A stretch of DNA of 44,793 nucleotides from an uncultured Lachnospiraceae bacterium (lineage in GTDB: Bacteria > Bacillota > Clostridia > Lachnospirales > Lachnospiraceae): NCBI GenBank assembly GCA_900314255.1, contig OMUP01000040.1, positions 1-44,793 of the forward strand. The letters run 5' to 3'. Under the pieces are notes generated by a model. The model was not told the origin of the DNA and did not search any database. It worked only from the letters and a program-made list of their open reading frames with translations. A program made the position numbers and the translations under genes. Below are positions 5,496-29,518 of this stretch, one piece after another. How positions within the stretch are numbered: position 1 is the stretch's first letter; every line of letters starts with the position of its first letter.

Positions 5496-6521
5496 ATGAA
5501 CAATCACAAGGAATTTGATCTTGTCGCCATGGGGGAGCTGATGCTCCGTCTTTCCCCTCCGGGTGAAGACCGTCTGACAAGAGGCGAGACGTTTGAGAAG
5601 CAGGTGGGCGGCGCCGAACTCAACGTGCTGACCGGCGTGGCGCTGGCCGGCCTGCGCTCCGGCATCATCTCCAAGCTTCCCGCCAACGATATCGGAACCT
5701 ATGTAAAGAACCGGGTCCGCTTCTGCGGTGTCTCCGATGACTATCTTGTCTGGGACTCTTCGGCGGACGCCCGTGTCGGCTTGTATTACTACGAGAGCGG
5801 CTCGTATCCGAAAAAGCCGCGCATCGTCTATGACCGCAAGCACTCTTCCTTCAACAAGATCGCCCTCAGCGAATACTCGGATTCCCTGTACGCATCGGCC
5901 CGCATGTTCCACACCAGCGGCATCACTCTGGCACTCAGCCAACAGTCCCGCGAGACCGCCATCGAGATGATCAAGCGCTTCAAGGAGGCCGGTGCCCTGA
6001 TTTCCTTTGACGTAAACTACCGTGCCAACCTCTGGACCGGCGAGGAAGCCCGCCGCACTATCGAGGGAATTCTGCCGTATGTGGACATTTTCTTCTGTTC
6101 GGAGAGTACCGCGCAGCTCACCTTCAAAAAGACGGGCGACCTGCACTCGATCATGAAGAGCTTCACGCAGGAATACCCGATCCGCATTGTTGCCTCCACG
6201 CAGCGCATTGTGCACAGCCCGAAGATCCACACCTTCGGCTCTGTCATCTATGACGCGCGAAGCAACCGGTATTACACCGAGGATCCGTATCACAACATCG
6301 AGGTTGTGGACCGCATCGGATCCGGCGACGCCTACGTGGGCGGTGTTCTCTACGCACTGCTCTCGGACCCGGAGAACATCCAGCGCGCGGTCGAGTTCGG
6401 CGACGCCGCCAGCGCCGTGAAGAACACGGTTCCGGGCGACCTTCCGACCAGTGACCGTCAGGAGCTCGAAAGTGTCATTGCCGACCACAAGAGCACCGTT
6501 CACACGGAAATGTCCCGGTAA
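5496..6521 (+). CDS. kdgK: PfkB-family sugar kinase, probably 2-dehydro-3-deoxygluconokinase
   Basis: The 341-residue ribokinase/PfkB-fold kinase carries GELMLRLSPP near the N-terminus, the substrate-contact glycines GGAELNVLTGVALAGL (38-53), FDVNYRANLW (171-180), and the catalytic/ATP signature GSGDAYVGG (275-283, base Asp278). The FDxNYRxxLW element and overall length fit KDG kinases, which phosphorylate 2-keto-3-deoxygluconate to KDPG in the Entner-Doudoroff or pectin/uronate route. The gene stands alone: no KDPG aldolase or uronate gene is adjacent, so another ketose or sugar acid remains possible. It has its own promoter, an AGGAGG site 5 bases before the ATG, and a terminator just after the stop. 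Confidence 0.8.
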   Translation: MNNHKEFDLVAMGELMLRLSPPGEDRLTRGETFEKQVGGAELNVLTGVALAGLRSGIISKLPANDIGTYVKNRVRFCGVSDDYLVWDSSADARVGLYYYESGSYPKKPRIVYDRKHSSFNKIALSEYSDSLYASARMFHTSGITLALSQQSRETAIEMIKRFKEAGALISFDVNYRANLWTGEEARRTIEGILPYVDIFFCSESTAQLTFKKTGDLHSIMKSFTQEYPIRIVASTQRIVHSPKIHTFGSVIYDARSNRYYTEDPYHNIEVVDRIGSGDAYVGGVLYALLSDPENIQRAVEFGDAASAVKNTVPGDLPTSDRQELESVIADHKSTVHTEMSR

Positions 6522-6638: not shown

Positions 6639-8036
6639 TCACCTGCGCTTTGCAAGTACCTGCTGCAGGCGCACATCATCGCCCGGATACGCAACTGTGC
6701 GGCTCCCGAGGCGTATATCGCCGTCGCCGCCGCGGCCGAGAATCATGAGCACGTCGCCGTCCTGACATTCCCGGACGGCTTCCTCAACAGCCTCTGCTCT
6801 GTCGCGGAGATACACGTGCGGCGTGCGCGGACTGATTCCGGCGCCGATCTGCGCTGCGATGGCATCCGGATCCTCATCGCCCGGATCGCCCATCGTCAGA
6901 ATAACCCTGCCGCAGTTTTCAGAAGCCGCCGCGCCGAGCTTATGTCTGCTTTCCTCGTCCCGGCCGCCGTCATCGCCAAATACCGCGATCAGACGCCCGT
7001 TCTCTTTTACAAGTTCCTTTCCGACAGCAAAGACATCCGAGAATTGCTGCGGCGTATGTGCATAGTCCACAATCGCCGCAAACGGCTGCCCCGCGTCGAT
7101 GCATTGCATCCGCCCGCGGACCGGCCCGACTTCAGATGCGGCCGCCGCCACTTCTTTAAACGGCATTCCGGCGGCAGTACAGGCCGCCATCGCACCCAGA
7201 AGATTGTAAATGTCAAATTCCGCGATAAGCCCCGCGCATACGCGTTCTTCCCTGTTTCCGCTGCGGAACGTGAAGGAAGTCTGCATTCCCTGCCGGCGGA
7301 TGTCGACTGCCCTGTAATCAGCTTCCCGGCGGATGCCATAGGAGATAACACGCGCCTTGGTGATGGCGGACAGTTCGCTGTATGTGTCGGAATCGATATT
7401 CAGCACTGCCGCGGCGTCCCCTTTGAGTCCCCGGAACAGCTGTTTCTTGGCTTCATAATAGGCGTCCATGCTGCCGAAAAAGTCCAGATGATTTTCCGAG
7501 AGATTTGTGAAGACGGCCACGTCAAAATCAACACAGGCCGCGCGGCCTTCCGCCAGGGCATGTGCGGATACTTCCAGAGCGGCAGCTTTTGCGCCGTCAT
7601 CAAGCATCCTCTTCAGCGCCGTCTGCAGCGTCACCGCCTCCGGCGTAGAAAGACCAGTGTCGTATTTCTTTCCCTCAAACGAAATGCCGCTGCTGCTGAT
7701 CAGGCCGCAGGGCATCCGGCGTGCAAAAATCTGGCTGATGAAAGCGGCCGTCGTCGTCTTGCCGCTTGTCCCCGTCACGCCGAACACCTTCATGTGATGA
7801 CTCGGGTGTCCGTAAAACGAATCGCACGCCTCATTCAGCGCCTTCACCACGTCCGGGACACGGATGTAGCAAACGCCGTCGCTCTGCGCCTCCGGCAGCT
7901 CGTCCTGATAGACAATGACCGACGCGCCGCGGTCTGCCGCCATGCCGGCAAAGCGGTGCCCGTCCGTGACGGAGCCCGGCATGCAGAAAAACACATCGCC
8001 TTTTTCAACTTTTCTCGAATCAATACAGAGTTTCAT
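6639..8036 (-). CDS. Divergent MurE-like Mur ligase
   Basis: The 465-residue Mur-ligase-fold protein has DSRKVEKGDVFF (UDP-sugar domain), P-loop GTSGKTT (89-95), LEVSAHAL, FTNLSENHLDFF, the EAKKQLF stretch around the carbamylated-Lys position (197-198), VDYAHTP (323-329) and a C-terminal ligase domain. MurE adds the third amino acid to UDP-MurNAc-dipeptide. Here the substrate-recognition motifs are altered: GDPGDEDP replaces DNPRxEDP, GRGGDGD replaces GKGHEDY, and FGDDGGRDEESR replaces the usual CGGDRD. About 20-25 N-terminal residues of MurE are missing. The frame stays open to 8099, but those residues overlap the MBOAT gene; the ATG at 8036 has GAGGGCAAATGCAGC before it. As the last gene of the glycopolymer run, it probably acts on a cluster-specific substrate rather than diaminopimelate, which is inference. 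Confidence 0.8.
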   Translation of the reverse strand: MKLCIDSRKVEKGDVFFCMPGSVTDGHRFAGMAADRGASVIVYQDELPEAQSDGVCYIRVPDVVKALNEACDSFYGHPSHHMKVFGVTGTSGKTTTAAFISQIFARRMPCGLISSSGISFEGKKYDTGLSTPEAVTLQTALKRMLDDGAKAAALEVSAHALAEGRAACVDFDVAVFTNLSENHLDFFGSMDAYYEAKKQLFRGLKGDAAAVLNIDSDTYSELSAITKARVISYGIRREADYRAVDIRRQGMQTSFTFRSGNREERVCAGLIAEFDIYNLLGAMAACTAAGMPFKEVAAAASEVGPVRGRMQCIDAGQPFAAIVDYAHTPQQFSDVFAVGKELVKENGRLIAVFGDDGGRDEESRHKLGAAASENCGRVILTMGDPGDEDPDAIAAQIGAGISPRTPHVYLRDRAEAVEEAVRECQDGDVLMILGRGGDGDIRLGSRTVAYPGDDVRLQQVLAKRR

Positions 8037-8052
8037 GCTGCATTTGCCCTCA

Positions 8053-9651
8053 TCAGAAATTTGCGTAAATAAATCCGCTTGTCTGTTTTGCCCAGCCAAG
8101 GAGCAGGATCGAAAGAAGCATCAGAAGATACAGCGTCCAGCGCAGTGCCAGCGGTTTTGCGGCAAGCGTCTCCCGCACCTGCTTCCCGGTCCGTTCCTTG
8201 TACAGACTCACGAAGAAGATCACAAGACAGCCAAAGAGCAGAATCAGATAATCAGACTTCAGCAGGCCCAGCGCCGCGATGTCGCCGTTGGTGAACTGCG
8301 CAAACGAAGGAGACGTAAACGTCAGCTTCAGCGCCAGATTGCCCTCGGACAGGTTGTTCGGAATGTCGAAATACCAGCTGATCTGCACCAGAATAAAGGT
8401 GCGGATGATCTGGAAGATATGCCAGCCTCTCGACTTCGGGTTAATGTGGAACTTCTCGAAGCCCGAGCGGTACAGCGGCGCCATGAAGCTTGAAAAGGCC
8501 ATGATTCCGCCATTGTAGATACCGTAAATGATGTATTTCCACGACGCTCCGTGCCAGATGCCGACCACAAAGAATACCAGCAGGTCGCCCAGCGCGATCG
8601 GAAGACCGCGGCCGAAACGTCCGAGTTTCTTTCCGGCCCAGTGACCGAGCTTACTCATGCTCTTGCTGAGCGAGAACGGATAGAAGATGTAGTCCTTCAT
8701 CCACGTTCCGAGCGTGATGTGCCATCTGCGCCAGAAATCGCTGATTGACGTCGAGAAATACGGCTGCCGGAAGTTCTCGTCCATGGTGATGCCGAACATC
8801 TGCGCCGCTCCGATGACGATGTCAATGCCGCCCGAAAAATCCGCATACAGCTGAATCGAGTACATCAGAATGCCCACCGCGATCTGAAAGCCGTGGTAAT
8901 TGCCGACGCCGGCGGAAAAGACTGTCGCCGTCACCGATCCGGCCCGGTCCGCCAGGATCATCTTCTTGAAAAGTCCCCAGCCGATGCGGATGAGTCCGTA
9001 CTCGAAATTGTCAAAGTCAAACCGGCGCTCCTGTATAAGCTGCGGCTCGAGTCTGTCAAAACGTCCGATCGGGCCCTGCATGAGCTGCGGGAAGAAGCAC
9101 ACGAACAGAGCCAGTTTCCCGATGTTCTTCTGGGCTTCAATTTTTCCGTTGTACAGATCGATCAGATACGACGCCGACTGGAACGTATAGAAAGAAATGC
9201 CGAGCGGCAGCAGCATCGTCGGGATGGAAAATGTGCTCTGCCCAAGCGCCGCGAGGATGGCATTGACATTTTCCAGGACGAAGCCGGTGTACTTGATGAC
9301 CGCCAGAATGCCGAATACATACAGCATGAGGACGATCAGAACCGCCCGTTTCTTCTTCTTCATGGAAGCCCGGTAGGCTTTTCTCTGCTCGCGCGGCCAC
9401 GCCGCCTTGTTGGCGGCAACCGTCTCTTTTTCCGTTTTGTTCAGATAATCCAGCACGCGCCCGCCGGCATAGGTGCCGAAAATCGTCATGAACAGGAGCA
9501 GAATGCCTTTCCAGCTGAATGTGCTCAGATAAAACAGGCTCATTCCGAGCAGAACGACCCACTGAAAACGCCTGCATTTCCCCGGCAGCAGGTAATAGAT
9601 CAGCAGGCCGGCTGCCAGGAACAGAAACCAGGATACCGTTGTAAAACTCAT
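8053..9651 (-). CDS. MBOAT-family membrane O-acyltransferase (AlgI/DltB-like)
   Basis: The 532-residue polytopic membrane protein opens with FTTVSWFLFLAAGLLIYYLL and has many hydrophobic segments. The MBOAT hallmarks are SDFWRRWHITLGTWMKDY (His311) and the catalytic VVGIWHGASW (His367). The QLMQGPIGRFD and YSIQLYADFSGG motifs are typical of AlgI/PatA/DltB relatives. These proteins carry an acyl group (acetyl or D-alanyl) across the membrane to an extracellular polymer. The upstream gene, an SGNH-like protein, overlaps it by ATGA (9648-9651), giving the membrane-acyltransferase plus exported-partner pair known from AlgI/AlgJ and DltB/DltD. No DltA or DltC is nearby, so acetylation is likelier than D-alanylation. 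The substrate is probably the polymer made by this operon (inference). Confidence 0.9.
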   Translation of the reverse strand: MSFTTVSWFLFLAAGLLIYYLLPGKCRRFQWVVLLGMSLFYLSTFSWKGILLLFMTIFGTYAGGRVLDYLNKTEKETVAANKAAWPREQRKAYRASMKKKKRAVLIVLMLYVFGILAVIKYTGFVLENVNAILAALGQSTFSIPTMLLPLGISFYTFQSASYLIDLYNGKIEAQKNIGKLALFVCFFPQLMQGPIGRFDRLEPQLIQERRFDFDNFEYGLIRIGWGLFKKMILADRAGSVTATVFSAGVGNYHGFQIAVGILMYSIQLYADFSGGIDIVIGAAQMFGITMDENFRQPYFSTSISDFWRRWHITLGTWMKDYIFYPFSLSKSMSKLGHWAGKKLGRFGRGLPIALGDLLVFFVVGIWHGASWKYIIYGIYNGGIMAFSSFMAPLYRSGFEKFHINPKSRGWHIFQIIRTFILVQISWYFDIPNNLSEGNLALKLTFTSPSFAQFTNGDIAALGLLKSDYLILLFGCLVIFFVSLYKERTGKQVRETLAAKPLALRWTLYLLMLLSILLLGWAKQTSGFIYANF

Positions 9652-10703
9652 TGCGTGTCCACCCCCGGCATTGCCTCAAAATAATCCGATTTCACATAGG
9701 TCCCGGCTGCTTTTTTCTGCAGAATTTCCGCCACGACAGCCGTGAAGCGGCTTCCGGCGCTGCCGGTGATATGCCCTTCCAGATCCCGGTAATCCATCGT
9801 GGTGCGCAGGAACACACTCTGCTTCATGAAATATCCGTCAAACCACTCGATGCCCTCGCTCTTGAAATAGGTGGCCAGCTGCGTGTGAATGTTGTTCAGA
9901 TCCCAGACAGACTCTGCATACGGCGTCGTCGGAACCGAGAAGCACACCAGATTGACGCCGGCCGCATCGCAGACCTTTTTGATCTCCGTCATCTGCTCCA
10001 GCATCTTCTGCGAGAACTGCGCCTGAGAGTGTTCTGCCATTTTCAGGACATATTTTTTGCCGGATGGCTCCTCCGTCATGTCTGGCGCCGAAAACCAGCC
10101 GCGGCCCATGTAATTGTCCGGCATGCCCTTGGTGTTCACCTCTTCGATCGTGGCGTCCTTCCAGGAGTCGGTGGACTTTACGTACAGATTGTGCCGGATC
10201 TCTTCCGGCGTCAGCTGATAGATGGCACGCCCGGAAATAGCACCGCGGATATCGTACGTATTGCAGTTGCGGAAAAGCTCCGTGCATTTCGTGATGGAAA
10301 ATGGCGTGCAGGCGAAGTATTTCGTCTCGTACAGCTGACCTGACTCCGTGCTGTCGTTCCAGAAATACTGCCAGTCCACATCGAAAAGGACCGTTTCCAC
10401 GTGATTTGTCTCGATCGCGTATTTGATGACGTCAATGCTCTGATTCAGCGTCTCTCCCGGCACCGCCAGCGTATACGCATTGACTCCCAGCGCATCGGAT
10501 ATCACCTGCGGATCATATGCATATGCTGCATGCGAGGACCCGACAATGACAAAATTGTAGTCCTCATCCTTCTTTCCAACGTTGCGAAGTAAAAATTCCG
10601 TGGTCCCGTACGGCATGAACACATAATCACAGATCTGCACCAGTATGAAGAATACCGCGAAAAATGCAACAAGCCGCAGAGCTTTTTTCCTGCCGGACAT
10701 CAT
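9648..10703 (-). CDS. SGNH/DltD-like membrane-anchored protein, partner of the MBOAT acyltransferase
   Basis: The 351-residue protein has one N-terminal transmembrane segment (about 9-27, LRLVAFFAVFFILVQICDY) and an outward domain. NFVIVGSSHAAYAYDP (50-65) matches the block I position of GDSL/SGNH proteins such as DltD and AlgJ. NYMGRGWF and CFSVPTTPYAESV lie further on. A plausible late Asp-x-x-His pair is DLEGHITGSAGSRF. DltD/AlgJ-type partners finish acyl transfer or remove acyl groups outside the membrane. ATGA overlap with the downstream MBOAT gene argues for coupled translation and a shared complex. It starts ATGATG after AAAGGACAGAT. Assignment is by topology, motif and context; overall sequence identity to any named family is not obvious by eye. 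Confidence 0.7.
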   Translation of the reverse strand: MMSGRKKALRLVAFFAVFFILVQICDYVFMPYGTTEFLLRNVGKKDEDYNFVIVGSSHAAYAYDPQVISDALGVNAYTLAVPGETLNQSIDVIKYAIETNHVETVLFDVDWQYFWNDSTESGQLYETKYFACTPFSITKCTELFRNCNTYDIRGAISGRAIYQLTPEEIRHNLYVKSTDSWKDATIEEVNTKGMPDNYMGRGWFSAPDMTEEPSGKKYVLKMAEHSQAQFSQKMLEQMTEIKKVCDAAGVNLVCFSVPTTPYAESVWDLNNIHTQLATYFKSEGIEWFDGYFMKQSVFLRTTMDYRDLEGHITGSAGSRFTAVVAEILQKKAAGTYVKSDYFEAMPGVDTQ

Positions 10704-10729
10704 ATCTGTCCTTTCTGTTTCCTTTCTGC

Positions 10730-12256
10730 TTATGAATTCGGGTTCTGCGCGTCGTATTCTGCCAGAATTTCCTTGATCAGATCTCCATCCGTCGGAAACG
10801 GAATGAATTTCGTCCCCCGCCTCATAATCGGGTCCTCGCCCCGGCCGGCCAGAAGAAGTACCGTCGGCACCTTGCTGTCATACACGGCCCGGCGGATCGC
10901 CTCTCTTCTGTCCGGAATAATCTCATACGGGCAGTTCTGCTCGCGAACTGCCTGCGCGATCTGCTCGTTGATCTGCGCGAGATCTTCCTCCTGCGGATCG
11001 TCCTCGGAAATGTACACGAAATCCGCATATTTACCGGCAATCTCGCCCATGTCATGCCGCCGGTCCAGGGCCTTTCCGCCCGGAGCCCCGAAGACAATGA
11101 CCGTCCGCATCCCCGGGAAATCCTCGCGGACCGCCTCAAAGAGCTTCTGGAATGAAAGCTGGTTGTGCGCATAATCCACGACAACCGTCAGCTTCCCGTC
11201 GGCGCTGTGGTAAAAATCCATATGCCCCGGCACCTTTGTATTTTTCAGGCCTTCCCGCATGCAGTCCGTCGAAACGCCGTATTCGCCGCACACAGCGATC
11301 GCCGCGAGCGCATTGGAGACATTAAAGCTCCCCAGCATGTTCAGCTCAAACATCTCGTCCCGGCCCTTCCGGCGCACCTGAAACGAAAGCCGCCCGCCGT
11401 CTCTTTTCAGCGAATGTCCGAAAACATCCGCCGTCTCATCCTTCATGGAAAATGTGACAACCTTCGACGTCTTTTCCTTCGCGCGGCTCAGGATCTCCTG
11501 CGCATGGTCCGAGTCCAGATTCACGACAGCCATGCGGCTCTGATCGAAAATCTTCAGCTTGCTGGCAAAATAATCTTCCCAGGTCGGATGCTCAATCGGA
11601 GAGATGTGATCATACCCGATGTTCAGGAAAACGCCCGCGTCAAACTGCACGCCCAGCACCCGGTCGTACTTGAGCGCCTGGGACGAAACCTCCATCGTGG
11701 CATACGAAATTCCGTGTTCCGCCGCCGTGTAGAAATGATATTCCAGATCGAGCGGTTCCGGCGTCGTTATAACCGACTCAAACCGGTCAACACCGTTATA
11801 CGTCGTGAAAGAAGAGATCAGCGCCGGTTCCGGCTTCCCGTTCTTCTTCTCCCACGCAGAAAGGATGCCATTGATGAAAAATGCGGTTGTCGACTTCCCC
11901 TTCGTCCCTGTTATGCCGGTGACCGTGAGACGTTTCCAGGGCTCCCCGTAAAATTTCTGCGCCAGCCAGGCCGCAGCGGCACGGATGTCCGTCACCTGTA
12001 TAAAGGGAAGGCTGCTGCCTTCGACCGCTTTTTCCGCCACATAACAGAAGGCGCCTGCCTCCGCCGCATCTTTCAGGTACTGCGGGCGGAAATGAGCGCC
12101 TTTTACTATGAAAAGAGTTCCTTCCTCAACTTGTTTCGAATTGCAGCTGACCAGCCGGACCGTCTGCCCGAAAAGCGTTTCCGGGCAGATGATATTGCCG
12201 ACCAGGTTTTTCTGTTTCAGAAAGTCGATATAGCTGCCAAGTGTGTACGTCTTCAT
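10730..12256 (-). CDS. MurE homologue of the lysine-adding (streptococcal) type
   Basis: The 508-residue Mur ligase has P-loop GTKGKSTT (117-124), MEVSSQALKYDRVLG, FLNIGYDHISPIEHP and EDYFASKLKIF (Lys233 at the carbamylated position), VDYAHN (about 360-365) and a C-terminal domain. The spacing and wording around FLNI-DHI-PIEHP-EDYF closely resemble streptococcal MurE, which adds L-Lys to UDP-MurNAc-L-Ala-D-Glu. The specificity loop is EDDPQEED (418-425), without the Arg of the diaminopimelate DNPR motif, and VPGHMD stands where VPGRME is usual. The frame extends to a GTG at 12277; the ATG at 12256 has GGAAAGGAAAAGAGG before it. It lies between the ABC exporter and the acylation pair. It could be the cell's ordinary MurE if the peptidoglycan contains Lys, or a ligase dedicated to the glycopolymer. 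Confidence 0.85.
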   Translation of the reverse strand: MKTYTLGSYIDFLKQKNLVGNIICPETLFGQTVRLVSCNSKQVEEGTLFIVKGAHFRPQYLKDAAEAGAFCYVAEKAVEGSSLPFIQVTDIRAAAAWLAQKFYGEPWKRLTVTGITGTKGKSTTAFFINGILSAWEKKNGKPEPALISSFTTYNGVDRFESVITTPEPLDLEYHFYTAAEHGISYATMEVSSQALKYDRVLGVQFDAGVFLNIGYDHISPIEHPTWEDYFASKLKIFDQSRMAVVNLDSDHAQEILSRAKEKTSKVVTFSMKDETADVFGHSLKRDGGRLSFQVRRKGRDEMFELNMLGSFNVSNALAAIAVCGEYGVSTDCMREGLKNTKVPGHMDFYHSADGKLTVVVDYAHNQLSFQKLFEAVREDFPGMRTVIVFGAPGGKALDRRHDMGEIAGKYADFVYISEDDPQEEDLAQINEQIAQAVREQNCPYEIIPDRREAIRRAVYDSKVPTVLLLAGRGEDPIMRRGTKFIPFPTDGDLIKEILAEYDAQNPNS

Positions 12257-12300
12257 CCTCTTTTCCTTTCCGGACACGTCTGCCGATCAGCAGCCGGTAA

Positions 12301-13587
12301 TCAGATATCCAGCTTCCAGCTGTGCGGGAACCGGGCTATGCCGACATCGGCCGTGTTGCTGAAGACTGTGAACTTCAGGGCCTTCTTGTAGTAATCCACC
12401 GGGATTCCGGCTCCGTATTCAATCGTGATGTCACACCAGTAGGAACCCGGAATCAGATTCAGATTGTCAATTTTGACCGTATAGCTTCCGTCCTTTTCAA
12501 TATCAAAGTTCGGAAGACGGTCGATCCGCGTGTTGGTGCCGTAGACCCAGAGTCCGTCCGAGCGGAAAATTCCGAAGCCGAACACACAGTCCGTCACCTT
12601 TGTCTTCACGGTATAGTGAAGATTCAGCGTCATCGGTTCTCCTGTGGTGAAGGAATTGCTGTCCTGTCCCTTCTCATCCAGAAGATGGATCTCCGTGAAC
12701 ATAGCGTCCTGGCTGCCGTAGCGCAGTCTGGCCGCTGCCTTCCGCTTCTCCTCTTCCTTGCGTTTTCTTTCTTCCTCGGCCTGCCGCTTTGCGGCTTCCT
12801 CCTGCTCGTGCTTTTTCCGCTCGAGCTCCGCCTTCTGGCGGGCGATCGCCGCATCATTCATATAGTCAAGGTACGCCAGATGCACTTCCTTCGGCGGGCC
12901 TTCCTTCTCGATCTTTCCGTCCTTGATCCACAGCGACCGGTCGCAGAACTGCTCGATCGAGCTCAGGTCGTGCGATACGATGACAATCGTCGTGCCCTCT
13001 CCCTTGATTTCCCGCAGTTTATTGTAGCACTTGCGCTGAAAGTTGGCGTCGCCGACGGCCAGGATCTCATCGATCAGAAGCACATCCGCGTCCACGTTGA
13101 TGGCGACGGAAAACGCCAGGCGCATGTACATGCCGGACGAATAGGTGCGCACCGGCTCATTGATGAAATCGCCGAGCTCCGAGAACTCGATGATGTCATC
13201 CAGGCGCTCGTCGATCTCTCTCTTGGTCAGACCGAAAATCGATGCATTGGTGTAAATATTCTCACGCCCGCTCATGTCCGGATGAAATCCGGCGCCCAGC
13301 TCGATGAGCGACGACACACGCCCGTTGATCTTTATGGAGCCGCTGTCCGGGTAGATAATCCGCGACAGGAGCTTGAGCGTGGTTGACTTGCCGCAGCCGT
13401 TTTTGCCGACAAGACCGATGGACTCGCCCTTCTTCACCTTGAAACTGATGCCGCGGATAACTTCGCGGTTCTCGTGGCGGTTGCGCCGCCAGAAGATCAT
13501 CTTTTCCTTCAGGGAATTGGATTTGTCGTAGTAGACCTTGAAGGCCTTCGTTATATTATTGACTTCGATAGCGTATTCACTTTCCAT
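12301..13587 (-). CDS. wzt: Polysaccharide ABC exporter ATPase with C-terminal carbohydrate-binding domain (Wzt-like)
   Basis: The 428-residue protein has three parts. The ABC domain (1-245) contains Walker A GLVGKNGCGKST (58-69), LIELGAGFHPDMSGREN, signature YSSGM (149-153), Walker B ADVLLIDE and the H-loop SHD (205-207). A linker (about 247-290) is almost entirely Lys, Glu, Arg, Gln and Ala, a probable charged coiled coil. The C-terminal beta domain (about 295-428) is of the Wzt_C kind, ending in PHSWKLDI. In O-antigen exporters that domain recognises the modified non-reducing end of the glycan before export. The frame is open to 13725, but the ATG at 13587 has TTGGAGAAACCAG before it. It lies 16 bases after the permease stop and energises export of the polymer made here. 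Confidence 0.93.
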   Translation of the reverse strand: MESEYAIEVNNITKAFKVYYDKSNSLKEKMIFWRRNRHENREVIRGISFKVKKGESIGLVGKNGCGKSTTLKLLSRIIYPDSGSIKINGRVSSLIELGAGFHPDMSGRENIYTNASIFGLTKREIDERLDDIIEFSELGDFINEPVRTYSSGMYMRLAFSVAINVDADVLLIDEILAVGDANFQRKCYNKLREIKGEGTTIVIVSHDLSSIEQFCDRSLWIKDGKIEKEGPPKEVHLAYLDYMNDAAIARQKAELERKKHEQEEAAKRQAEEERKRKEEEKRKAAARLRYGSQDAMFTEIHLLDEKGQDSNSFTTGEPMTLNLHYTVKTKVTDCVFGFGIFRSDGLWVYGTNTRIDRLPNFDIEKDGSYTVKIDNLNLIPGSYWCDITIEYGAGIPVDYYKKALKFTVFSNTADVGIARFPHSWKLDI

Positions 13588-13603
13588 CTGGTTTCTCCAA
13601 ACA

Positions 13604-14389
13604 TCAGAAGTTCTCGGCGAACCCCTTCTGCAAATGTTCGAAGAGGAAGAAGCCGAATATGGTAAGCACGACGCCGAACACAAGCCCGTATCCGAGCTGT
13701 CCGAAATCAGGAACCACCTTGTCATACAGGCAGTCGCGGTAGCTGTTGAGAATCGACGTCATCGGATTCAGCTTAAAAATCCACATCAGACGATCCGGCA
13801 CGAGACCGGTATCCACCCGGTACATCACCGGGGATGCATACTGCAGACCCATGACAAATATGCCGAATATATACTGCAGATCCCGCAGATACACCGTCAG
13901 CGCCGACGCGATGAACGCGACGCCGAGGCACAGGATATATTCCACGATCATGACAATGGGCAGGCACGCAATCGCCTTCGGATTGATGCCGCGGCCCGAT
14001 ATGAGCGTCACCGCGATAACCACGATGAATGTCAGAAGCATGTTCACAAAGCCGCTGGTCACCGTTGCGATCGGCAGAACAGCCCGCGGAAAATAAATCT
14101 TTTTCACCATATCCTGTTCCCGTATGATCGCAATCGACCCGTCCTGAAGACTGGTTGCGAAGAACATCCACGGGATCAGGCAGACAAACAGGAACAGATA
14201 GTACTGATCCTCTCCCGAACGCATGATCACCGAGAAAACCATGGTGTAGATCAGCAGCTGGAACAGCGGATTGATGAACGTCCACAAAAAACCCAGAACC
14301 GATCCCTTGTAACGGCCGCGCAGGTCCTTGCGGACCAGTGTGGCAATCATCTCGCGGTACGCGTAAATTTCCTTAATACCTTTTATCAT
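13604..14389 (-). CDS. wzm: Polysaccharide ABC exporter permease (Wzm-like, ABC-2 family)
   Basis: The 261-residue ABC-2 permease contains LVRKDLRGRYKGSVLGFLW and INPLFQLLIYTMVFS at the N-terminus, the usual start of O-antigen/teichoic-acid exporters (Wzm, TagG, RfbD). About six hydrophobic segments follow. LRDLQYIFGIFVMGLQYASPVMY and LNPMTSILNSYRDCLY are family-typical C-terminal motifs. The ATG at 14389 is chosen because AGAGGGCAG lies 4-5 bases before it and it gives the usual length; ATGs at 14404 and 14461 are further inside the upstream glycosyltransferase. The gene overlaps the 3' end of that gene by 17 bases. With the ATPase downstream it forms the exporter that moves the lipid-linked glycan out of the cytoplasm. 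Confidence 0.93.
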   Translation of the reverse strand: MIKGIKEIYAYREMIATLVRKDLRGRYKGSVLGFLWTFINPLFQLLIYTMVFSVIMRSGEDQYYLFLFVCLIPWMFFATSLQDGSIAIIREQDMVKKIYFPRAVLPIATVTSGFVNMLLTFIVVIAVTLISGRGINPKAIACLPIVMIVEYILCLGVAFIASALTVYLRDLQYIFGIFVMGLQYASPVMYRVDTGLVPDRLMWIFKLNPMTSILNSYRDCLYDKVVPDFGQLGYGLVFGVVLTIFGFFLFEHLQKGFAENF

Positions 14390-15710
14390 TCTGCCCTCTG
14401 TCATGTAAGCCGCCAGAACAGATCGTCCGGATCCGCTCTGCCGCCTTTTCTGCCGGCACATTAAGACTCAGCCTGTTTTTCACGGCCTCAGAAGCCGTGC
14501 GTTTTATTTTATCATAGAATTCTGTGTCTGTGTATAAACGTCTCATAAAGCCTGCGGCAGCCTGCGTGTCAGGAGCTGCCCAGTGCATGCCCTTTCGGAA
14601 CGCCCCCGTCTGGTGCGCAATCTCTTCCAGCGCGCAGGGGACCATGCAGGCACAGGACTCGTCCATGAACTCCGTGTTGGCCGACCAGTCTGTGGCGACG
14701 ACCGGCGTTCCCAGCTCCATGGCCTCCGCCATGACAAGCCCGAAGCCCTCTGCCCTGTGCAGGCTGACAAATGCGTCACACGCGCAGGTGAGCGCATCAA
14801 CCTGCGGCTTGGGCAGGTTTCCGCCGATGACGTATACATGTTCAAGACCTTCGCACAGTCTCTCCCGCTCTGCCGCCTGCTGCGGTGTCTCTTCGTGCAC
14901 CTTGAGCACAAGACCGCTGCCTTTTACTTTTCTGTCTCTCTCTCTGCCGTCAGGTTCCGGCGCTTCATCTTCCCGCCCGGCAAATGCCTTCCGGTACGCT
15001 TCAATCGCCGCAGCCGGATTTTTGCGCGCAGCACCGCTGCCGCCGTCGTACATCACCAGAAACAGAAAGCGGTCCTCGGGAAGTCCGAAGCGCTTCCTGT
15101 CCCAGGCCGGATCTGCCGCCGTCTGCACCGGATAAGGCACAGTGAGCACCGGCTTGTCCGTCACCTTCCGGATCGTATCCGTGATGAAGCCGGACGGCGT
15201 CCAGATTTCATCCGCCAGGCGGATGCACGCCTTCCACTCCTGCGGAAACTCCTGAAGCTCCCACAGCCAGTACGCGATATTATAGTGACCGGAAAACCGC
15301 TCCGTCCCAAGATCCAGAAAAGGAAGCGGGAATTCAGACGGATTTACGTGGATCAGATTGACTCCGTAGCGGTCCTTGTCTGTTTCCAGCGATGCAAACG
15401 GATCCGGCTCCGTCGCCGCGTCACTCGGCACGACCCAGGGCTGCACCGCAAAAGGCACGCCGCCTGCCTGCAGAATCTGCCCGACAAGGCGCATGCTCTG
15501 CCCGAGCCCCGTCGGCGCCTTGATGTTGCCGATCAGATTGACACCTGCCGGACGCGCCGAACGGTCAAACGCCGCAAGCTGCTTTTCGATCTTCGGAATT
15601 TTTCCAAGGATCGCCTTTGCCTTCAGGTCTGAGAGCACCGTCTGCGGGATGACTTTTTTCAGCAGGGGCCGCAGTTTTTCCGCCGCGCCCAGCACTCCTC
15701 CGGTACTCAT
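14373..15710 (-). CDS. GT4-type glycosyltransferase
   Basis: The 445-residue GT-B-fold transferase has GVNLIGNIKAPTGLGQSMR (56-74) as donor/acceptor-side Gly-rich element, WLWELQEFPQEW, a central VMYDGGSGAARKNP (about 219-232) and the GT4 signature RAEGFGLVMAEAMELGTPVV (319-338, with the EX7E glutamates). Between the domains lies an unusual acidic/basic insert (REDEAPEPDGRERDRKVK, about 246-263). Its product is not predictable from sequence. It starts by ATGA overlap (15707-15710) with the preceding transferase. It should add one sugar to the lipid-linked chain before the adjacent exporter acts. Confidence 0.88.
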   Translation of the reverse strand: MSTGGVLGAAEKLRPLLKKVIPQTVLSDLKAKAILGKIPKIEKQLAAFDRSARPAGVNLIGNIKAPTGLGQSMRLVGQILQAGGVPFAVQPWVVPSDAATEPDPFASLETDKDRYGVNLIHVNPSEFPLPFLDLGTERFSGHYNIAYWLWELQEFPQEWKACIRLADEIWTPSGFITDTIRKVTDKPVLTVPYPVQTAADPAWDRKRFGLPEDRFLFLVMYDGGSGAARKNPAAAIEAYRKAFAGREDEAPEPDGRERDRKVKGSGLVLKVHEETPQQAAERERLCEGLEHVYVIGGNLPKPQVDALTCACDAFVSLHRAEGFGLVMAEAMELGTPVVATDWSANTEFMDESCACMVPCALEEIAHQTGAFRKGMHWAAPDTQAAAGFMRRLYTDTEFYDKIKRTASEAVKNRLSLNVPAEKAAERIRTICSGGLHDRGQNDKRY

Positions 15711-16822
15711 CCGACATTCTCCACAATAAAATCCGCCACCGTCTTCCCGAGTTTCTCCGGGCTGTAGCGGCTGATCACCTCATCGTACTGCTCCCGGTTT
15801 ACCGGCCGGTCCGCATCCGCGTCAAATCCGGCCAGGGAGCGGGCCAGATTCCTGATGCGGTCTTCGTCGCTTCCTTCCCAGGGCGATATGCGCAGTACGC
15901 CCGGCCCTTCGATTTCATTATAAATCGGAAGATCACTCACCAGGACCGGCTTGTAGAACTTCATGACTTCGATGACCGGCATGCCGAATCCTTCTGCACG
16001 GCTCGGGAACACAAAACAGGAGCAGCCGGCGTAGAGCGCATGCTTCTCCTCGTGCGGAACGTAATTTTTATATGTGATTCCCGGAACTTCCTGCTGCGTC
16101 TGCCGGATCATCTGCCCGATGGGCTCCTCCTGGATTTTTCCGGCAAGTACCAGCGGCCGTGTGCCGCCATACTTTCTGTAGAGACGGTATGCCTGCAGAA
16201 GAATATCCACGCCCTTGCGCAGCTCCATGTTGCCGACGTAAAGGAAGTAATTCTGATCCGTGATCTTGCGCTTCACCCGCAGAGGGTGCGCAATAATATA
16301 GGAATCCGCACTCGGAATTTTCTGTGCTTCCGGGAAGAAATGATAGGTTGACTTCCGGGTCTGCTCCGAGTTGTACAGGATCATGTCCGTGTCTTTCAGA
16401 GTGCGCCGCATGGCGAGCCGGAAATACAAGCCGTAGACATGGCCCACATACTGCGGATATTCCAGCGGAAACATGTCGTGAATTGTGATCATCGTGCGGA
16501 AGGACCCACCCAGCCGCACCGGGATCAGCGAATTCACCTCCCAGAAAAGATCCGGTTTCACATCCGCGAGCTCCCGGCGGATCCAGCGGAAATACTTAAA
16601 TACCGACGAGGACACATTGACAGCCGATCCGAACGCGCGCACTTCCATGCCCGCCCGGCGGCATTCCTTCATATATTCACTGGTCTGCACATCCGTTAGA
16701 AGAATGAACTCAAACCGCTCATCCTTTCCCAGAATTTTCAGGAAATCATAAAAGTACATCCCGACTCCGCTGGGCCGGCTTCCGAGATTTCTTGCGTCTG
16801 CCGCAATCCGGATTTTTTTCAT
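15707..16822 (-). CDS. GT4-type glycosyltransferase
   Basis: The 371-residue GT-B transferase starts KKIRIAADARNLGSRPSGVGMYFYDFL, the N-terminal Gly loop common to mannosyl/rhamnosyl-type GT4 enzymes. It has YVGNMELRKGVDILLQAY at the start of the donor domain and FPSRAEGFGMPVIEVM with the EX7E pair. TIHDMFPLEYPQYVG matches the acceptor-domain motif of this subgroup. The start ATG has ACAGGAAAGAGAGA before it and lies 16 bases after the preceding gene's stop. It belongs to the chain-extension set of the glycopolymer operon; linkage and donor sugar are unknown. Confidence 0.9.
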   Translation of the reverse strand: MKKIRIAADARNLGSRPSGVGMYFYDFLKILGKDERFEFILLTDVQTSEYMKECRRAGMEVRAFGSAVNVSSSVFKYFRWIRRELADVKPDLFWEVNSLIPVRLGGSFRTMITIHDMFPLEYPQYVGHVYGLYFRLAMRRTLKDTDMILYNSEQTRKSTYHFFPEAQKIPSADSYIIAHPLRVKRKITDQNYFLYVGNMELRKGVDILLQAYRLYRKYGGTRPLVLAGKIQEEPIGQMIRQTQQEVPGITYKNYVPHEEKHALYAGCSCFVFPSRAEGFGMPVIEVMKFYKPVLVSDLPIYNEIEGPGVLRISPWEGSDEDRIRNLARSLAGFDADADRPVNREQYDEVISRYSPEKLGKTVADFIVENVG

Positions 16823-16838
16823 TCTCTCTTTCCTGTCT

Positions 16839-17915
16839 TCAGCTCCAGGTTCTGAGCTTGTCCGACAGCCTGTGAATCGGCCGCGAAAGGGCCGCTGCCG
16901 TCTTATCCCATGAAAAATGCATCAGCACATTTTCCGCAGGCGCCGTGCTGGTCTTCAGCATATCTTCCAGGTCATAGTTCGGCGAATCGGGGTCGACGTA
17001 AAGAGCTGTCTGCCCGTAAACCTCCCGCATGACCGGTATATCCGACACAATGATCCGCGCGCCGCAGGAGAGCGCCTCCATCGGCGGGATCCCGAATCCC
17101 TCATACTTCGTCGGGAACAGAAATGCGCGGCAGTGCTGCATCAGAGCCTTCATCTGACCGTCGCTCACTCTCCCGGTGCGGATTACATTCGGGAGATCCT
17201 GTCCCAGGACCGATTCCCCGAAGTCACCGCCGCTGATCACGTACCAGAGCTCCGGGTGGAGCTGCGCATTGTGAACAACCCACGGCACATTTTTGTACTT
17301 GGAAAGAGAACCGCAGTACAGAAAATAATTGCCCGGGATGATCCGGGGATTTCTGGCAAATACAGTCTCATCCGGCTCAATCGCAAGAAAATGCTGCCAC
17401 CCGCAGCCCGTGATCGTAATCCGCGGGTTCTTCGGATTGTAGCAGTTTAATATCTCGCGCCGGCTGAAGCCGCTGTCCGTCGCAATTTCATCCGCTTCCT
17501 CAAACGCCTTCTTGTACAGCAGCCTGCGGAAGATGATCTCTTTCTTGTCCGGTCCCGGGGAAAGCAGAGGCTCCCTCGTCTTGTAGACGATATCGTGGAT
17601 CATGATCAGCCCCTTCGGCCAGGACAGCGGAAACGTATTGCACAGATGAATTCCGAACGTCTGCTTTTCCTTCAGATATTTTCCGAGTTCTATCTGCTCC
17701 CACCAGCGGATGCTTTTTCCTGTCTTTCCGAGCCGCACCGCCGGAATATTCGTGTACTTCGGAATGGCGCTTTCCGGAAGGTCGCCGGGGACGGCAATCT
17801 CCACCGGCACGTCTGAAAGCCGCCGGTCAAGACAGGCAAGCGTCTCTCGTGCGAAACGCTGGACACCCGTCACCGGTTCTGCCAGGAACGCCCCGTTGAT
17901 GACAAGTTTTTTCAT
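16839..17915 (-). CDS. GT4-type glycosyltransferase
   Basis: The 358-residue GT-B transferase starts KKLVINGAFLAEPVTGVQRFARE, the N-terminal motif of GT4 enzymes acting in surface polysaccharide loci. It has FLYCGSLSKYKNVPW at the donor-domain opening and FPTKYEGFGIPPMEALSCGARIIVSD carrying the EX7E pair. Its start codon overlaps the dehydratase stop by ATGA (17912-17915). It resembles the downstream transferase in domain layout, so the two may be an old duplication and add neighbouring residues. The sugar specificity cannot be read from the sequence. Confidence 0.9.
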   Translation of the reverse strand: MKKLVINGAFLAEPVTGVQRFARETLACLDRRLSDVPVEIAVPGDLPESAIPKYTNIPAVRLGKTGKSIRWWEQIELGKYLKEKQTFGIHLCNTFPLSWPKGLIMIHDIVYKTREPLLSPGPDKKEIIFRRLLYKKAFEEADEIATDSGFSRREILNCYNPKNPRITITGCGWQHFLAIEPDETVFARNPRIIPGNYFLYCGSLSKYKNVPWVVHNAQLHPELWYVISGGDFGESVLGQDLPNVIRTGRVSDGQMKALMQHCRAFLFPTKYEGFGIPPMEALSCGARIIVSDIPVMREVYGQTALYVDPDSPNYDLEDMLKTSTAPAENVLMHFSWDKTAAALSRPIHRLSDKLRTWS

Positions 17916-19948
17916 CGCTCGCCCTCTCTTTCCGAATTTTTACCGCTTTCATCGGCGTCCCGTCTGGCTTCCATGGCCGCTTTGCTCGCATTTTCCTCGG
18001 CTGCTCTCTCCTCGGCCTCCCGCTTGCGGGCAAGCTCCAGTTTCGCGGCTTCATTGACCGCAGACTCACCGCCTCGCTCCGGATGGTATGTCGGTGCCAG
18101 CTCATGCAGCAGCGGGCGGATATCTCCGATTTCATCGTACGCCGCTTCCTTGAGCTTCACAAGCCGCTCCTCGAAATGCTCCTGGTCAAAGTTGATCGGC
18201 CGGCCGATGTGGATCAGCTTATTGGCTGTATCCTGCATGCCTTCTTCCTTCATCAGCATCTCTTCGTACAGCTTCTCGCCGGGGCGCAGTCCCGTATAGC
18301 GGATCTGCATGTCAACCCCGAGCGTGTAGCCCGAGAGTCTGATCAGGTTCTTCGCCAGATCGTCAATTTTGACCGGCTTGCCCATATCCAGCACGAAGAT
18401 TTCACCGCCCTTCGCGTATGCACCGGCCTGAAGAACCAGCGACACCGCCTCCGGAATCGTCATGAAATACCGGATGATATCCGGGTCCGTGACCGTCACC
18501 GGACCGCCGGCCGCGATCTGCTTCTTGAACAGCGGAATGACCGATCCGTTGCTGCCCAGGACGTTTCCGAACCGGACTGCCACAAACTCTGTCTTGCTGC
18601 GGCTGTTGTAGTACTGGATAATCATCTCGCAGATCCGCTTGGTGGCTCCCATCACATTGGTCGGATTCACCGCCTTGTCCGTCGAAATCATGACAAAGCG
18701 CTCCACGCCGTACTTGTCCGCGGCGCGCACCACATTCAGCGTCCCGAAAATATTATTCTTCACGGCTTCATTCGGGCTGACTTCCATCAGCGGCACATGC
18801 TTGTGGGCCGCCGCGTGATAGACGATGTCCGGATGATACTTGGAAAAGACCGCCGCCAGTCTGCCGCGGTTTCTCACCGATCCGATCAATGTCACGACAT
18901 TGGCATCCGGATACTTGAACTTCAGTTCCTGCTGAATTTCGTAGGCATTGTTCTCATAAATATCGAAAATAATCAGGCACTTCGGCTTGTGTGTAATCAG
19001 CTGCCGGCAGAGCTCTGATCCGATGGATCCGCCGCCGCCTGTCACCAGAACCGTCTTGCCCTTCACATATCCCATGATCGAATCCAGATCGACAGAAATC
19101 GGATCCCGTCCCAGCAGGTCCAGAACGTCAACATCCCGGATATCCCGCAGGTTGATTTCACCGTCCACCATCTGGTATACGCCCGGTACGATCTTCAGCT
19201 TGCAGCTTGTCTCCTTGCAGATGTTCAGGATCTTTCCCTTTTCCTCATTGGAACAGGAAGGAACCGCAAAAATGATCTCGTCGACATGAAAGTCTTTCGC
19301 CGCCTGACGGATCTTCTCGCGGCCGCCCACAACCCGGACACCGCGGATATATTTACCCTTTTTTCTCGGATCGTCGTCGATCAGGCAGACAACCTCCGAA
19401 CCGGCCAGATACCGGCTCATCTGCAGCTCGCGCACCAGGATATTTGCCGCCTCGCCGGCGCCGATGATCATGATCCGTGTGCTGTCGTTATTGTCCTTGA
19501 TGCCCCGCCAGCGGTGAAGAAGCTGCCGGACTGTGCGGTAAAAGAACCGCGTGAAACACTCCGCCAGAATCAGAAAACATCCCGCCACGAAATATACCGA
19601 GCGCGGCATGTTGTTGAACGTGATCATCGTGAGGAAGGCATAGAAAATCTCCGTCAGAATGCACGCCTCGAAAATCCGGTACGCCTCCGCGATGCTGGCG
19701 TACTGCCACAGGCTGTGATACATCCGGCAGGCCCAGAACACGCACAGGCCGATGATGGTAAATGGAATGCACGTCTCGACGTACGCCCTCCAGTACTCCG
19801 GCGGAATGAAGCTCAGGTGCATGTCAAACCGGATCAGAAGCGCAAAGATAGTTGTCGCATTCAGCCAGAAAATATCGATGATGATCAGGAACATACGCCG
19901 CACAAACAGCTGCGTCCTGTCCTTCTTTTCAACTGACGTCGTTGTCAT
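17912..19948 (-). CDS. Membrane-bound UDP-sugar 4,6-dehydratase (FlaA1/CapD/PglF family)
   Basis: The 678-residue protein has four N-terminal membrane segments (about 18-135), a first Rossmann-like domain (IMIIGAGEAANI, 159-170) and the catalytic SDR domain with TGGGGSIGSEL (303-313), YHAAAHKHVPLMEV (377-390) and STDKAVNPTNVMGATK (422-437). There the Thr-Asp-Lys and Met residues replace the usual SDR Ser-Tyr-Lys in this family. Relatives PglF and WbpM convert UDP-GlcNAc to UDP-4-keto-6-deoxy-GlcNAc. The next committed enzyme would be the DegT aminotransferase of the same operon. The last 50 residues are an Ala/Glu/Arg/Lys-rich tail, unusual for the family and similar in composition to the Wzt linker. 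It overlaps the GT2 gene by ATGA (19945-19948). Confidence 0.92.
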   Translation of the reverse strand: MTTTSVEKKDRTQLFVRRMFLIIIDIFWLNATTIFALLIRFDMHLSFIPPEYWRAYVETCIPFTIIGLCVFWACRMYHSLWQYASIAEAYRIFEACILTEIFYAFLTMITFNNMPRSVYFVAGCFLILAECFTRFFYRTVRQLLHRWRGIKDNNDSTRIMIIGAGEAANILVRELQMSRYLAGSEVVCLIDDDPRKKGKYIRGVRVVGGREKIRQAAKDFHVDEIIFAVPSCSNEEKGKILNICKETSCKLKIVPGVYQMVDGEINLRDIRDVDVLDLLGRDPISVDLDSIMGYVKGKTVLVTGGGGSIGSELCRQLITHKPKCLIIFDIYENNAYEIQQELKFKYPDANVVTLIGSVRNRGRLAAVFSKYHPDIVYHAAAHKHVPLMEVSPNEAVKNNIFGTLNVVRAADKYGVERFVMISTDKAVNPTNVMGATKRICEMIIQYYNSRSKTEFVAVRFGNVLGSNGSVIPLFKKQIAAGGPVTVTDPDIIRYFMTIPEAVSLVLQAGAYAKGGEIFVLDMGKPVKIDDLAKNLIRLSGYTLGVDMQIRYTGLRPGEKLYEEMLMKEEGMQDTANKLIHIGRPINFDQEHFEERLVKLKEAAYDEIGDIRPLLHELAPTYHPERGGESAVNEAAKLELARKREAEERAAEENASKAAMEARRDADESGKNSEREGER

Positions 19949-21060
19949 AAAGTACAGTCCTTTCCCCCCTCTGACAATGCCTGAGGCTTTTTAAGCTGTC
20001 CGCGCTTAAACGGAAGACAGATAAAGCCCGCCAGTGTTCCCAGTCCGTAGCTGACATGAAGCAGCAGGAACAGAACCGGAAGCATCCAGAAATAATATTT
20101 TCTGTCCCTGTTGTGCACACCGGCGTTCATCGACATGAACACGGCCAGACTGATATAAAGCGCCCAGAGAAGCCCCGTGAGGATCTGCACCGTGCGGATA
20201 AACACCCCCGTGGCACCGCACACTGCGCCTCCGATCGAAATTCCCGTCCCCAGAAACGCCAGCAACGTGAAAACAAGCGGGACAAAATAAAAAACAGAAA
20301 GGCACCGGGGACATACGGCACAGGTCAGAGCAATCCAGTACCCGTTTGCCGCCTTCTGGGCAAGCATGGCCTTAAGCGACCCCCGGATGTGTTCCCGTGA
20401 AACAATCTGCGGCGCAAAGCGGATCTTAAATCCTGCCTGGCGGATGCGCCAGTGCATCTCATTGTCCTCCGTCCGTTTCAGAGACTCGTTGTAAGGCCCC
20501 ACACGGTCAAATACCTTTTTCCGGTACATTCCGTGGAAGACGGAATTCACATACAGCTTCTCCGTGCTGTTTTTGTCTCCTGCCGCTTTCCCGTTCCGGC
20601 GGTACGAGGCAAAGCTGCTGCCGAACATAGAGGATTCTGCCATCAGAAGAGTATTCTTCCATGGCGTCTCTTCGTCCGTGATGCAGGGCCGCCTTCCGCC
20701 TACGACATCCTCCCCTTCCATGAGCACCGAAACATTTTTGCTCACAAAATCAGCGGGGATTTCCGCATGGGCATCGACGCGCACGATGGCCTCGCCGGCC
20801 GCTTCCTTCAGGATCACATTCCAGCCGCAGGGGAGCGTCCGGCCCGGGTTGTCAAGCACCCTGACCGCCGCAAACGATTTTCCCTCCCGTCCGGCGAACT
20901 CTTCCATGACTTTTTTCGTGCCGTCCGCGGATTCGCTGTCAACGAGCAGAATCTCCATGGATTTGTGCGGATAATCCTGCGCCGCGATCTGCTTCAGAAG
21001 TTCCGGCAGCGTCTTTTCCTCATTATAAGCGATAACCGCAAAGGTCACAAACATTGTCAT
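19945..21060 (-). CDS. GT2-family membrane glycosyltransferase (ExoA-like)
   Basis: The 371-residue GT-A transferase has FVTFAVIAYNEEKTLPELL at the N-terminus, LLVDSESADGTKKVMEEF (nucleotide-binding Asp), RVDAHAE as DxD-like metal site, and TEDNEMHWRIRQAGF with the catalytic-base ED motif. Two or more hydrophobic segments near the C-terminus (about 245-350) anchor it in the membrane, as in the ExoA-type enzymes that extend a lipid-linked primer. It starts by ATGA overlap (21057-21060) with the priming sugar transferase, so it is the natural candidate for adding the second sugar. Donor and linkage are unknown. Confidence 0.88.
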   Translation of the reverse strand: MTMFVTFAVIAYNEEKTLPELLKQIAAQDYPHKSMEILLVDSESADGTKKVMEEFAGREGKSFAAVRVLDNPGRTLPCGWNVILKEAAGEAIVRVDAHAEIPADFVSKNVSVLMEGEDVVGGRRPCITDEETPWKNTLLMAESSMFGSSFASYRRNGKAAGDKNSTEKLYVNSVFHGMYRKKVFDRVGPYNESLKRTEDNEMHWRIRQAGFKIRFAPQIVSREHIRGSLKAMLAQKAANGYWIALTCAVCPRCLSVFYFVPLVFTLLAFLGTGISIGGAVCGATGVFIRTVQILTGLLWALYISLAVFMSMNAGVHNRDRKYYFWMLPVLFLLLHVSYGLGTLAGFICLPFKRGQLKKPQALSEGGKDCTL

Positions 21061-29434: not shown

Positions 29435-29518
29435 CTGACCTTTTCCGTATACTGACGCAGGGAAAACCGCGCCTTCCCTCTCAGACAAAAACAAATGTCG
29501 TAGTTACACAAGCACTAA

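Follow-up and report, generated by a model that had tools for sequence, protein, structure and literature searches.

The DNA analyzed here, a 44,793-nucleotide stretch of contig OMUP01000040.1 (the window) from an uncultured Lachnospiraceae bacterium, carries two genes for MurE-type ligases, here called MurE1 and MurE2, among the genes of an exported glycopolymer. The source genome (G000, assembly GCA_900314255.1) is a bin of 224 contigs that is 96% complete, with 4% contamination. Six genes form a block on the minus strand, from 14389 to 6639, in the order Wzm, Wzt, MurE2, SGNH, MBOAT, and MurE1. The spacings between consecutive genes, from Wzm to MurE1, are 16, 44, 26, -4 (an overlap), and 16 bases when the ATG starts favored by homologues are used. 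Wzm (13604..14389) is a permease of the ABC-2 type (ABC2_membrane, PF01061) and Wzt (12301..13587) is a polysaccharide ATP-binding cassette (ABC) exporter ATPase with a Wzt_C carbohydrate-binding domain (PF00005, PF14524). They are followed by MurE2 (10730..12256), the SGNH/DltD-like partner (9648..10703) of a membrane-bound O-acyltransferase (MBOAT), the MBOAT O-acyltransferase itself (8053..9651), and MurE1 (6639..8036).

Both ligases scored above the cutoff of 257.3 bits that defines MurE membership in TIGR01085, MurE1 with 394.1 bits and MurE2 with 325.6 bits. A sequence-only reading of the window had described two Mur ligases flanking an MBOAT/SGNH pair directly behind Wzm/Wzt, on one strand and with gaps of 44 bases or less, and the coordinates and family models confirmed this description. 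The search for the same gene order in related genomes, which that reading had proposed, recovered the six-gene block in G005 and G009, both of them sister species; Wzm of G009 was masked by an antisense open reading frame in the gene listing and was detected by tblastn. Chance co-location within one bin was ruled out, as the arrangement is common to three species.

Mur ligases of the lineage and their descent

Six Mur-ligase matches were identified in G000, and the window pair were the only ones to pass the MurE cutoff. The others were MurF, located beside Ddl, MurC, and MurD, each identified by its own model, and a sixth protein (L006) that had no NCBIfam match at 1e-60 and that we read as MurT-like. 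The canonical third murE that the sequence-only reading had suggested looking for was not found in G000, the dcw region included, where MurD lies directly behind a gene for a SpoVD-like penicillin-binding protein. Exactly five Mur ligases (MurC, MurD, MurF, MurE1, and MurE2) were identified in G009, which is 99% complete in about 20 contigs, and the same five in G005 (83% complete). Since no third murE was found, at least one of MurE1 and MurE2 should act in peptidoglycan, given the essentiality of the MurE step. It is extremely improbable that a canonical murE is present and was missed by the assemblies: the fragmentation of the G000 bin and its 96% completeness would allow for it, but the absence is repeated in G009 and G005, and there is no intervening gene between MurD and the SpoVD-like gene.

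The MurE tree (72 rows) separated the two paralogues. MurE1 of the three species grouped with the proteins of G010 and G368 (support 100/100) among the Arg-type MurEs, which carry an arginine in the amino-acid pocket. MurE2 of the three species fell into a separate clade of 27 rows (100/100) with MurE1 outside it. Within this non-diaminopimelic acid (DAP) type clade its sister group was formed by Oscillospiraceae members (93/86), and its stem measured 0.69. MurE1-like proteins at E<=1e-95 were found in four of the 397 family genomes sampled (G000, G009, G010, and, more weakly, G368), a sample to which G005 evidently does not belong.

The island of G010 contains ProS, PcnB, sugar genes, Wzm, Wzt, SGNH, and MBOAT, as in the window. 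Roughly 18 kb beyond MBOAT are taken up by further sugar and surface genes, after which come MurE1, more surface genes, PfkB, UvrB, and UvrA. In the window, the PfkB-type sugar kinase gene (5496..6521, plus strand) is convergent with MurE1 and, with uvrB, forms the conserved edge of the island, based on synteny with G010. These comparisons indicate that MurE1 is the MurE passed down vertically, and it lies close to uvrB in G010 as well. Its position at the island edge looks older than the arrival of MurE2, the alternative being that MurE2 was lost in G010. The MurE1-like gene of G368 has no nearby polymer gene except a generic 27% ABC-ATPase match, and in G010 some 18 kb part MurE1 from MBOAT. 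The MBOAT-PfkB stretch of G010 (G010:C5:57800-84000; L170, L040) also holds a second sugar-nucleotide and phosphosugar transferase set (partly our reading), an amidase, a GH5 protein, and an NlpC/P60 protein with choline-binding repeats.

Over their last 40-residue stretch, MurE1 and MurE2 are 35-45% identical in the three species, compared with 15% for G010 and 25% for G368, which weakly hints at a short gene conversion of the MurE1 tail; the ordinary MurE of G025 is also 30% identical in this comparison.

Pairwise comparisons among the three species gave synonymous divergences (dS) of 0.44-1.03 and ratios of nonsynonymous to synonymous divergence (dN/dS) of 0.05-0.125 for MurE1, MurE2, MBOAT, and SGNH. 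The dN/dS values of MurE1 (0.118-0.125) and MurE2 (0.099-0.112) stand beside those of MurF (0.110-0.125), MurD (0.092-0.099), MurC (0.053-0.093), and UvrB (0.027-0.043). Both ligases are under purifying selection and are maintained like the core Mur ligases. Decay of the MurE1 gene was ruled out, its dN/dS matching that of the other Mur ligases.

Within the genus, as grouped by the tool, three of 11 genomes have the MurE pair, one (G010, 98% complete) has the MurE1 type as its sole MurE, and seven have MurE2-like ligases only. These seven are 70-95% complete; two of their ligases are partial and below the cutoff, and G002 has a further 100-bit match. Wall chemistry seems to vary within this one genus. 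In the small-genome members G007, G008, G001, G002, and G006 (L041-L045), only a divergent MurE2-type ligase (EDPD or EDSD) was over the cutoff.

Specificity residues and the wider MurE2-type clade

The residues of Staphylococcus aureus MurE that bind the amine of lysine are Asp406 and Glu460, and Asn407 contacts Glu460 and Lys457; replacement of Asp406, Asn407, or Glu460 by alanine greatly lowers or abolishes activity, and in Escherichia coli MurE it is Arg416 that binds the carboxylate of DAP (passages of PMC3829189). After five rows were dropped (two partial, two sub-cutoff Mur ligases, and one divergent), five pocket places were compared. They read D, N, R, K, and E in 40 Arg-type MurEs, rows that carry the pocket Arg by selection. 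The same places are G, D, G, R, and D in MurE1 of the three species and D, D, Q, R, and D in MurE2, with Q, D, R, K, and E in G010 and D, D, R, K, and E in G368. Neither window ligase has the Arg of DNPR, the DAP motif; the corresponding sequences are GDPG (MurE1) and DDPQ (MurE2). In addition, MurE1 has LGRGGDG where AGKGHE is expected, and MurE2 has AGRGEDP. As both ligases have lost the DAP-selecting residues, we predict a third stem-peptide residue other than ordinary meso-DAP.

The relatives of MurE2 were drawn from a scan of 84,980 species, with one genome per species, and the best 80 of at least 594 loci were analyzed; the statements on MurE2 loci below refer to these 80. The K-to-R and E-to-D pocket changes are shared by MurE1 and MurE2. 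Among the other MurEs compared, K-to-R was found in none and E-to-D in one (RUG254), and the 78 other MurE2 loci have K in 78, E in 77, and the hinge Arg in 78. Of 37 columns that are near-invariant in both types, two differ in MurE1 and MurE2 alike and carry one common replacement, with a hypergeometric P of 0.086 for the overlap. This value makes the parallel suggestive of joint adaptation but no proof of it.

The hinge Arg is replaced by His (PGHMD) in MurE2 of all three species and is kept in MurE1. By motif it corresponds to Arg302 of MurD, a molecular handle that contacts the ADP alpha-phosphate, according to a section of PMC4816537. This loss, set against an Arg in 78 of 78 other MurE2-type and 40 of 40 Arg-type proteins, raises the idea that peptidoglycan ligation falls to MurE1 and that MurE2 is a regulatory or catalytically inactive partner, all the more given the nucleotide contact of the MurD residue. 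We consider this unlikely. Both P-loops are kept (TGTSGKT and TGTKGKS), as is the place of the carbamylated Lys, which aligns with that of the S. aureus and Thermotoga maritima MurEs; the dN/dS of MurE2 is as low as that of MurD and MurF; and MurE1 is the more altered protein, with changes in seven of the 37 columns versus three in MurE2 (hinge Arg included).

Other assignments for the ligases were compared with family models. Against NF010628, the equivalog for L-lysine MurE, MurE1 scored 278 bits and MurE2 346.5 bits, below the cutoff of 536. A cyanophycin synthetase role was rejected on TIGR02068 scores of 100.8 and 88.9 bits, far under the cutoff of 850. For neither ligase did the 25 best NCBIfam rows include a CapB-type model, no dedicated CapB test having been made.

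The neighbors of MurE2-type genes were counted within 5 kb at the 66 loci with at least 2.5 kb of upstream sequence, the 14 with less being left out. An ATP-grasp gene was present at 53 of 66 loci, and at 47 there was an aspartate racemase gene as well. Neither neighbor was found at 13 loci, namely those of the two sister species (L057 and L058) and 11 others. Polymer genes occurred only at L057 and L058 (G009 and G005, respectively), and none were seen in the available flanks of the other 78 of the 80 loci.

The ATP-grasp protein is 38% like a carboxylate-amine ligase of Latilactobacillus curvatus, which adjoins an amino acid racemase, and 32% like a carboxylate-amine ligase of Limosilactobacillus fermentum. 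NCBIfam names it weakly as carbamoyl-phosphate-synthase-like, and no solved structure relevant to it was found. The AslA protein of lactic acid bacteria is a D-Asp ligase of the ATP-grasp type; in Lactococcus lactis racD belongs to the aslA operon, and L. fermentum contains L-ornithine (parts of PMC4155827). The neighbors of the MurE2-type genes look like an AslA/RacD pair, a resemblance that would tie the clade to peptidoglycan chemistry. At 22 of the 80 loci (one weak, one cut by a contig end) an acetylglutamate kinase (ArgB)-like stretch stands behind MurE2. Two such proteins that were tested hold both parts, with argB scores of 239 and 241 bits versus a cutoff of 151. The fusions (e.g., L060:2249-4606 and L099:9974-12379) come mostly from records named Oscillospiraceae or kin; an Intestinimonas-type relative has such a MurE-ArgB protein. 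Together, this context suggests that the MurE2-type clade adds lysine or ornithine, in a peptidoglycan with D-Asp, and the ArgB fusion leans toward ornithine.

FemAB was found in G007 and G008, whose sole MurE is of the MurE2 type, and in none of eight other genomes tested. Two of the FemAB-negative genomes, G015 and G046, also have a MurE2-type protein as their sole MurE above the cutoff, but with an adjoining ATP-grasp gene. For YkuD, an L,D-transpeptidase, there was a strong match in G000 (G000:C192:749-1120), none in G005 or G009, and one below the cutoff in G010; the G000 gene may be real or may come from a contaminant contig.

Sixteen named genomes were tested for both ligase types, and 12 of them had an Arg-type and a MurE2-type MurE, the remaining four having the MurE2 type only. 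In Eubacterium ruminantium no MurE other than a MurE2-type protein passed the cutoff. In five (G041, G042, G043, G044, and G050; L080, L091, L098, L102, and L120) a DNPR Arg-type MurE and a MurE2-type gene are no more than about 1.4 kb apart, and the paired genes stand behind an ATP-grasp ligase and an aspartate racemase. Such pairs would suit a cell with two wall chemistries, one ligase serving ordinary growth and the other a special stage or stress. The vegetative and spore walls of Bacillus sphaericus differ in a comparable way. For the window pair we regard this explanation as highly unlikely, as both genes are in one tight operon in three species and a DAP-type motif is in neither ligase.

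The exported polymer and its acylation pair

The MBOAT protein (PF03062, E 1e-21) has the WHG motif and a C-terminal FIYANF that fits FxYxxF, and both are kept in all six proteins compared, that of the window included. FxYxxF is the acyl-shuttle motif of MBOAT-SGNH pairs, according to portions of PMC12148441. The SGNH protein has an N-terminal helix and, in the alignment, GSSH and DLEGH (D..H) motifs; no convincing Pfam match was found for it, even at E<=1. Its predicted structure is a modest model, with a predicted local distance difference test (pLDDT) score of 68.3 and a predicted template modeling (pTM) score of 0.70. The best Foldseek matches of this model, at E 2e-4 to 1e-3, were to DltD (6o93, E 2.2e-4) and to hydrolases of the GDSL type, and DltD was the closest fold, at a template modeling score (TM-score) of 0.41. 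Carrier genes for DltA or DltC were not recognized among the operon proteins in general scans, to which that search was confined.

Upstream of Wzm, on the same strand, are genes for three GT4-type glycosyltransferases (14373..17915, from domain matches), a CapD/PglF-like membrane nucleotide-sugar 4,6-dehydratase (17912..19948, PF02719), a GT2-like glycosyltransferase (19945..21060, from weak NCBIfam family 2 matches, every one below cutoff), a polyprenyl phosphosugar transferase as the initiating enzyme (21057..21746, TIGR03025 200 bits, under the cutoff of 296), and a PseC/DegT-like sugar aminotransferase (21754..22977, TIGR03588 258 bits, under the cutoff of 424). By these family matches this is a normal gene set for an ABC-exported polysaccharide. 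The operon product is probably an ABC-exported, O-acylated surface glycopolymer, and this part of the sequence-only reading is supported by the Wzm/Wzt domains, WHG, and FIYANF.

The core of this system occurs elsewhere free of MurE. In G018 (L052), Wzm, Wzt, SGNH, and MBOAT follow one another in order with no MurE among them, and a second SGNH/MBOAT pair is present at L053. In G010 the order is Wzm, Wzt, a glycosyltransferase, SGNH, and MBOAT, with no MurE between. Because the core in both genomes lacks MurE, the MBOAT/SGNH pair belongs to the polymer and the MurE genes, by descent, do not.

The sequence-only reading had held that the Mur ligases were repurposed for the glycan, one or both attaching an amino acid or peptide to it; a uronic or lactyl carboxylate would be a possible site. 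The placement of MurE2 between Wzt and SGNH in all three species, the presence of two MurEs where one would do, and the changes in both pockets are as this proposal would have them. However, no other murE was found in G000 or G009 to serve peptidoglycan, relatives have the same polymer core with no MurE in it, a uronic acid gene was not recognized among the polymer genes examined in Pfam and NCBIfam scans, and the MurE2 relatives stand in other contexts. We therefore consider the proposal improbable, although one ligase may have a second role on the glycan. That reading had also named two outcomes that would count against it, and these were largely borne out. For the first, the lack of another murE with one of the pair supplying all peptidoglycan side chains, no other murE was found, and either ligase may be the supplier. 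For the second, ligases without the polymer genes in most relatives, such genes were absent from the flanks of 78 of the 80 MurE2 loci and set apart from MurE1 in G010 and G368.

Elsewhere on the contig, MurA (28133-29494, minus strand) and MurG (36319-37386, plus strand) agree with a wall-synthesis neighborhood and are not decisive. A tRNA gene truncated at the contig end (44734-44793, minus strand) was matched by Rfam, and ARAGORN found none.

Role of the pair and comparison with known systems

We consider it probable that the window ligases, the only MurEs found, act on the peptidoglycan stem, with both departing from the DAP-selecting residues, in an operon that makes an O-acylated glycan. 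The observations that led us to this are the gene order, the negative search for another murE, the phylogeny, the loss of specificity residues, and the purifying selection. The substrate, the identity of the third residue, the share of each ligase in the work, and the acquisition of MurE2 are predictions. The operon would make and export the acylated surface glycopolymer, with MurE1 and MurE2 working on the stem peptide rather than on the glycan. MurE1, inherited, would already have been at the edge of the polymer island near uvrB, and MurE2, of the type predicted to use lysine or ornithine with D-Asp, was probably acquired and inserted between Wzt and SGNH. The resulting peptidoglycan would be without meso-DAP or poor in it. 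Co-location may well reflect the joint expression of steps in wall synthesis that depend on a common lipid carrier. An unusual peptidoglycan is a more likely role for the pair than the decoration of a sugar polymer.

Several points weigh against this account. MurE2 is in mid-operon in three of three species, a position that chance insertion by itself fails to account for. An ATP-grasp ligase homologue is missing from G000 (best E 0.04) and FemAB was not found there, leaving it without the usual partners of a lysine or ornithine wall. LysA-like matches were present in six of six genomes, with the cutoff passed in G007 and G008 only, and do not discriminate. With seven and three changes, respectively, in the 37 near-invariant columns, neither MurE1 nor MurE2 is, by its residues, a textbook MurE, and the ligase activities are predicted from sequence. 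We give a small but real chance to a bolder account, in which the pair has jointly shifted to a third residue different from meso-DAP and from the usual lysine or ornithine, giving an undescribed peptidoglycan wired into a glycan operon, or in which one ligase puts such a residue on the glycan.

The residue at position 3 of the stem peptide sets how the wall is cross-linked. Fragments that contain DAP are detected by the host sensor NOD1. Clostridia are usually assumed to have meso-DAP (as stated in part of PMC4015370), an assumption that needs a chemical check in view of a lineage in which no MurE was found beyond these two, each devoid of the DAP determinant. The second MurE type, widespread in Clostridia and accompanied by a racemase and a protein like a D-Asp ligase, calls the same assumption into question. 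The locus also offers natural changes at the exact residues that set MurE specificity. The sole two MurEs found in these few gut-type bacteria lie within an exported-glycopolymer operon. No mention of the locus was seen among the literature listed on MurE in polymer clusters, second MurEs, MurE with acetylglutamate kinase, MurE with D-Asp ligases in Clostridia, or lysine-type Lachnospiraceae.

Compared with known systems, both ligases share the three-domain architecture of the meso-DAP MurE of E. coli (DNPR), and MurE1 descends from that group, in which G010 and G368 keep the Arg. MurE1 differs from it at the Arg, the Asn, and the first Asp of DNPR and at the pocket Glu, and the operon here is a polymer exporter. 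Like the L-lysine MurE of S. aureus (DNPA), the pair lacks the DAP-binding Arg, and MurE2 is acidic at the Asp406 and Glu460 places; it differs in the loss of the hinge Arg and in having Asp at the Glu460 place. The wider MurE2 clade resembles the AslA/RacD D-Asp cross-bridge pair in standing mostly beside an ATP-grasp ligase and an aspartate racemase, a likeness drawn from the match of the ATP-grasp protein to the lactobacillar carboxylate-amine ligases. The three species differ in having no partner pair at the locus, and G000 in having no such ligase. The acylation genes match the PatA/PatB and DltB/DltD pairs in WHG, the FxYxxF tail, and an adjoining DltD-like SGNH partner, whereas the polymer here is an ABC-exported glycan. 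Finally, the operon has the permease, Wzt_C ATPase, phosphosugar transferase, glycosyltransferases, sugar dehydratase, and aminotransferase of Wzm/Wzt polysaccharide clusters, from which it differs in the two MurE genes that lie within it.

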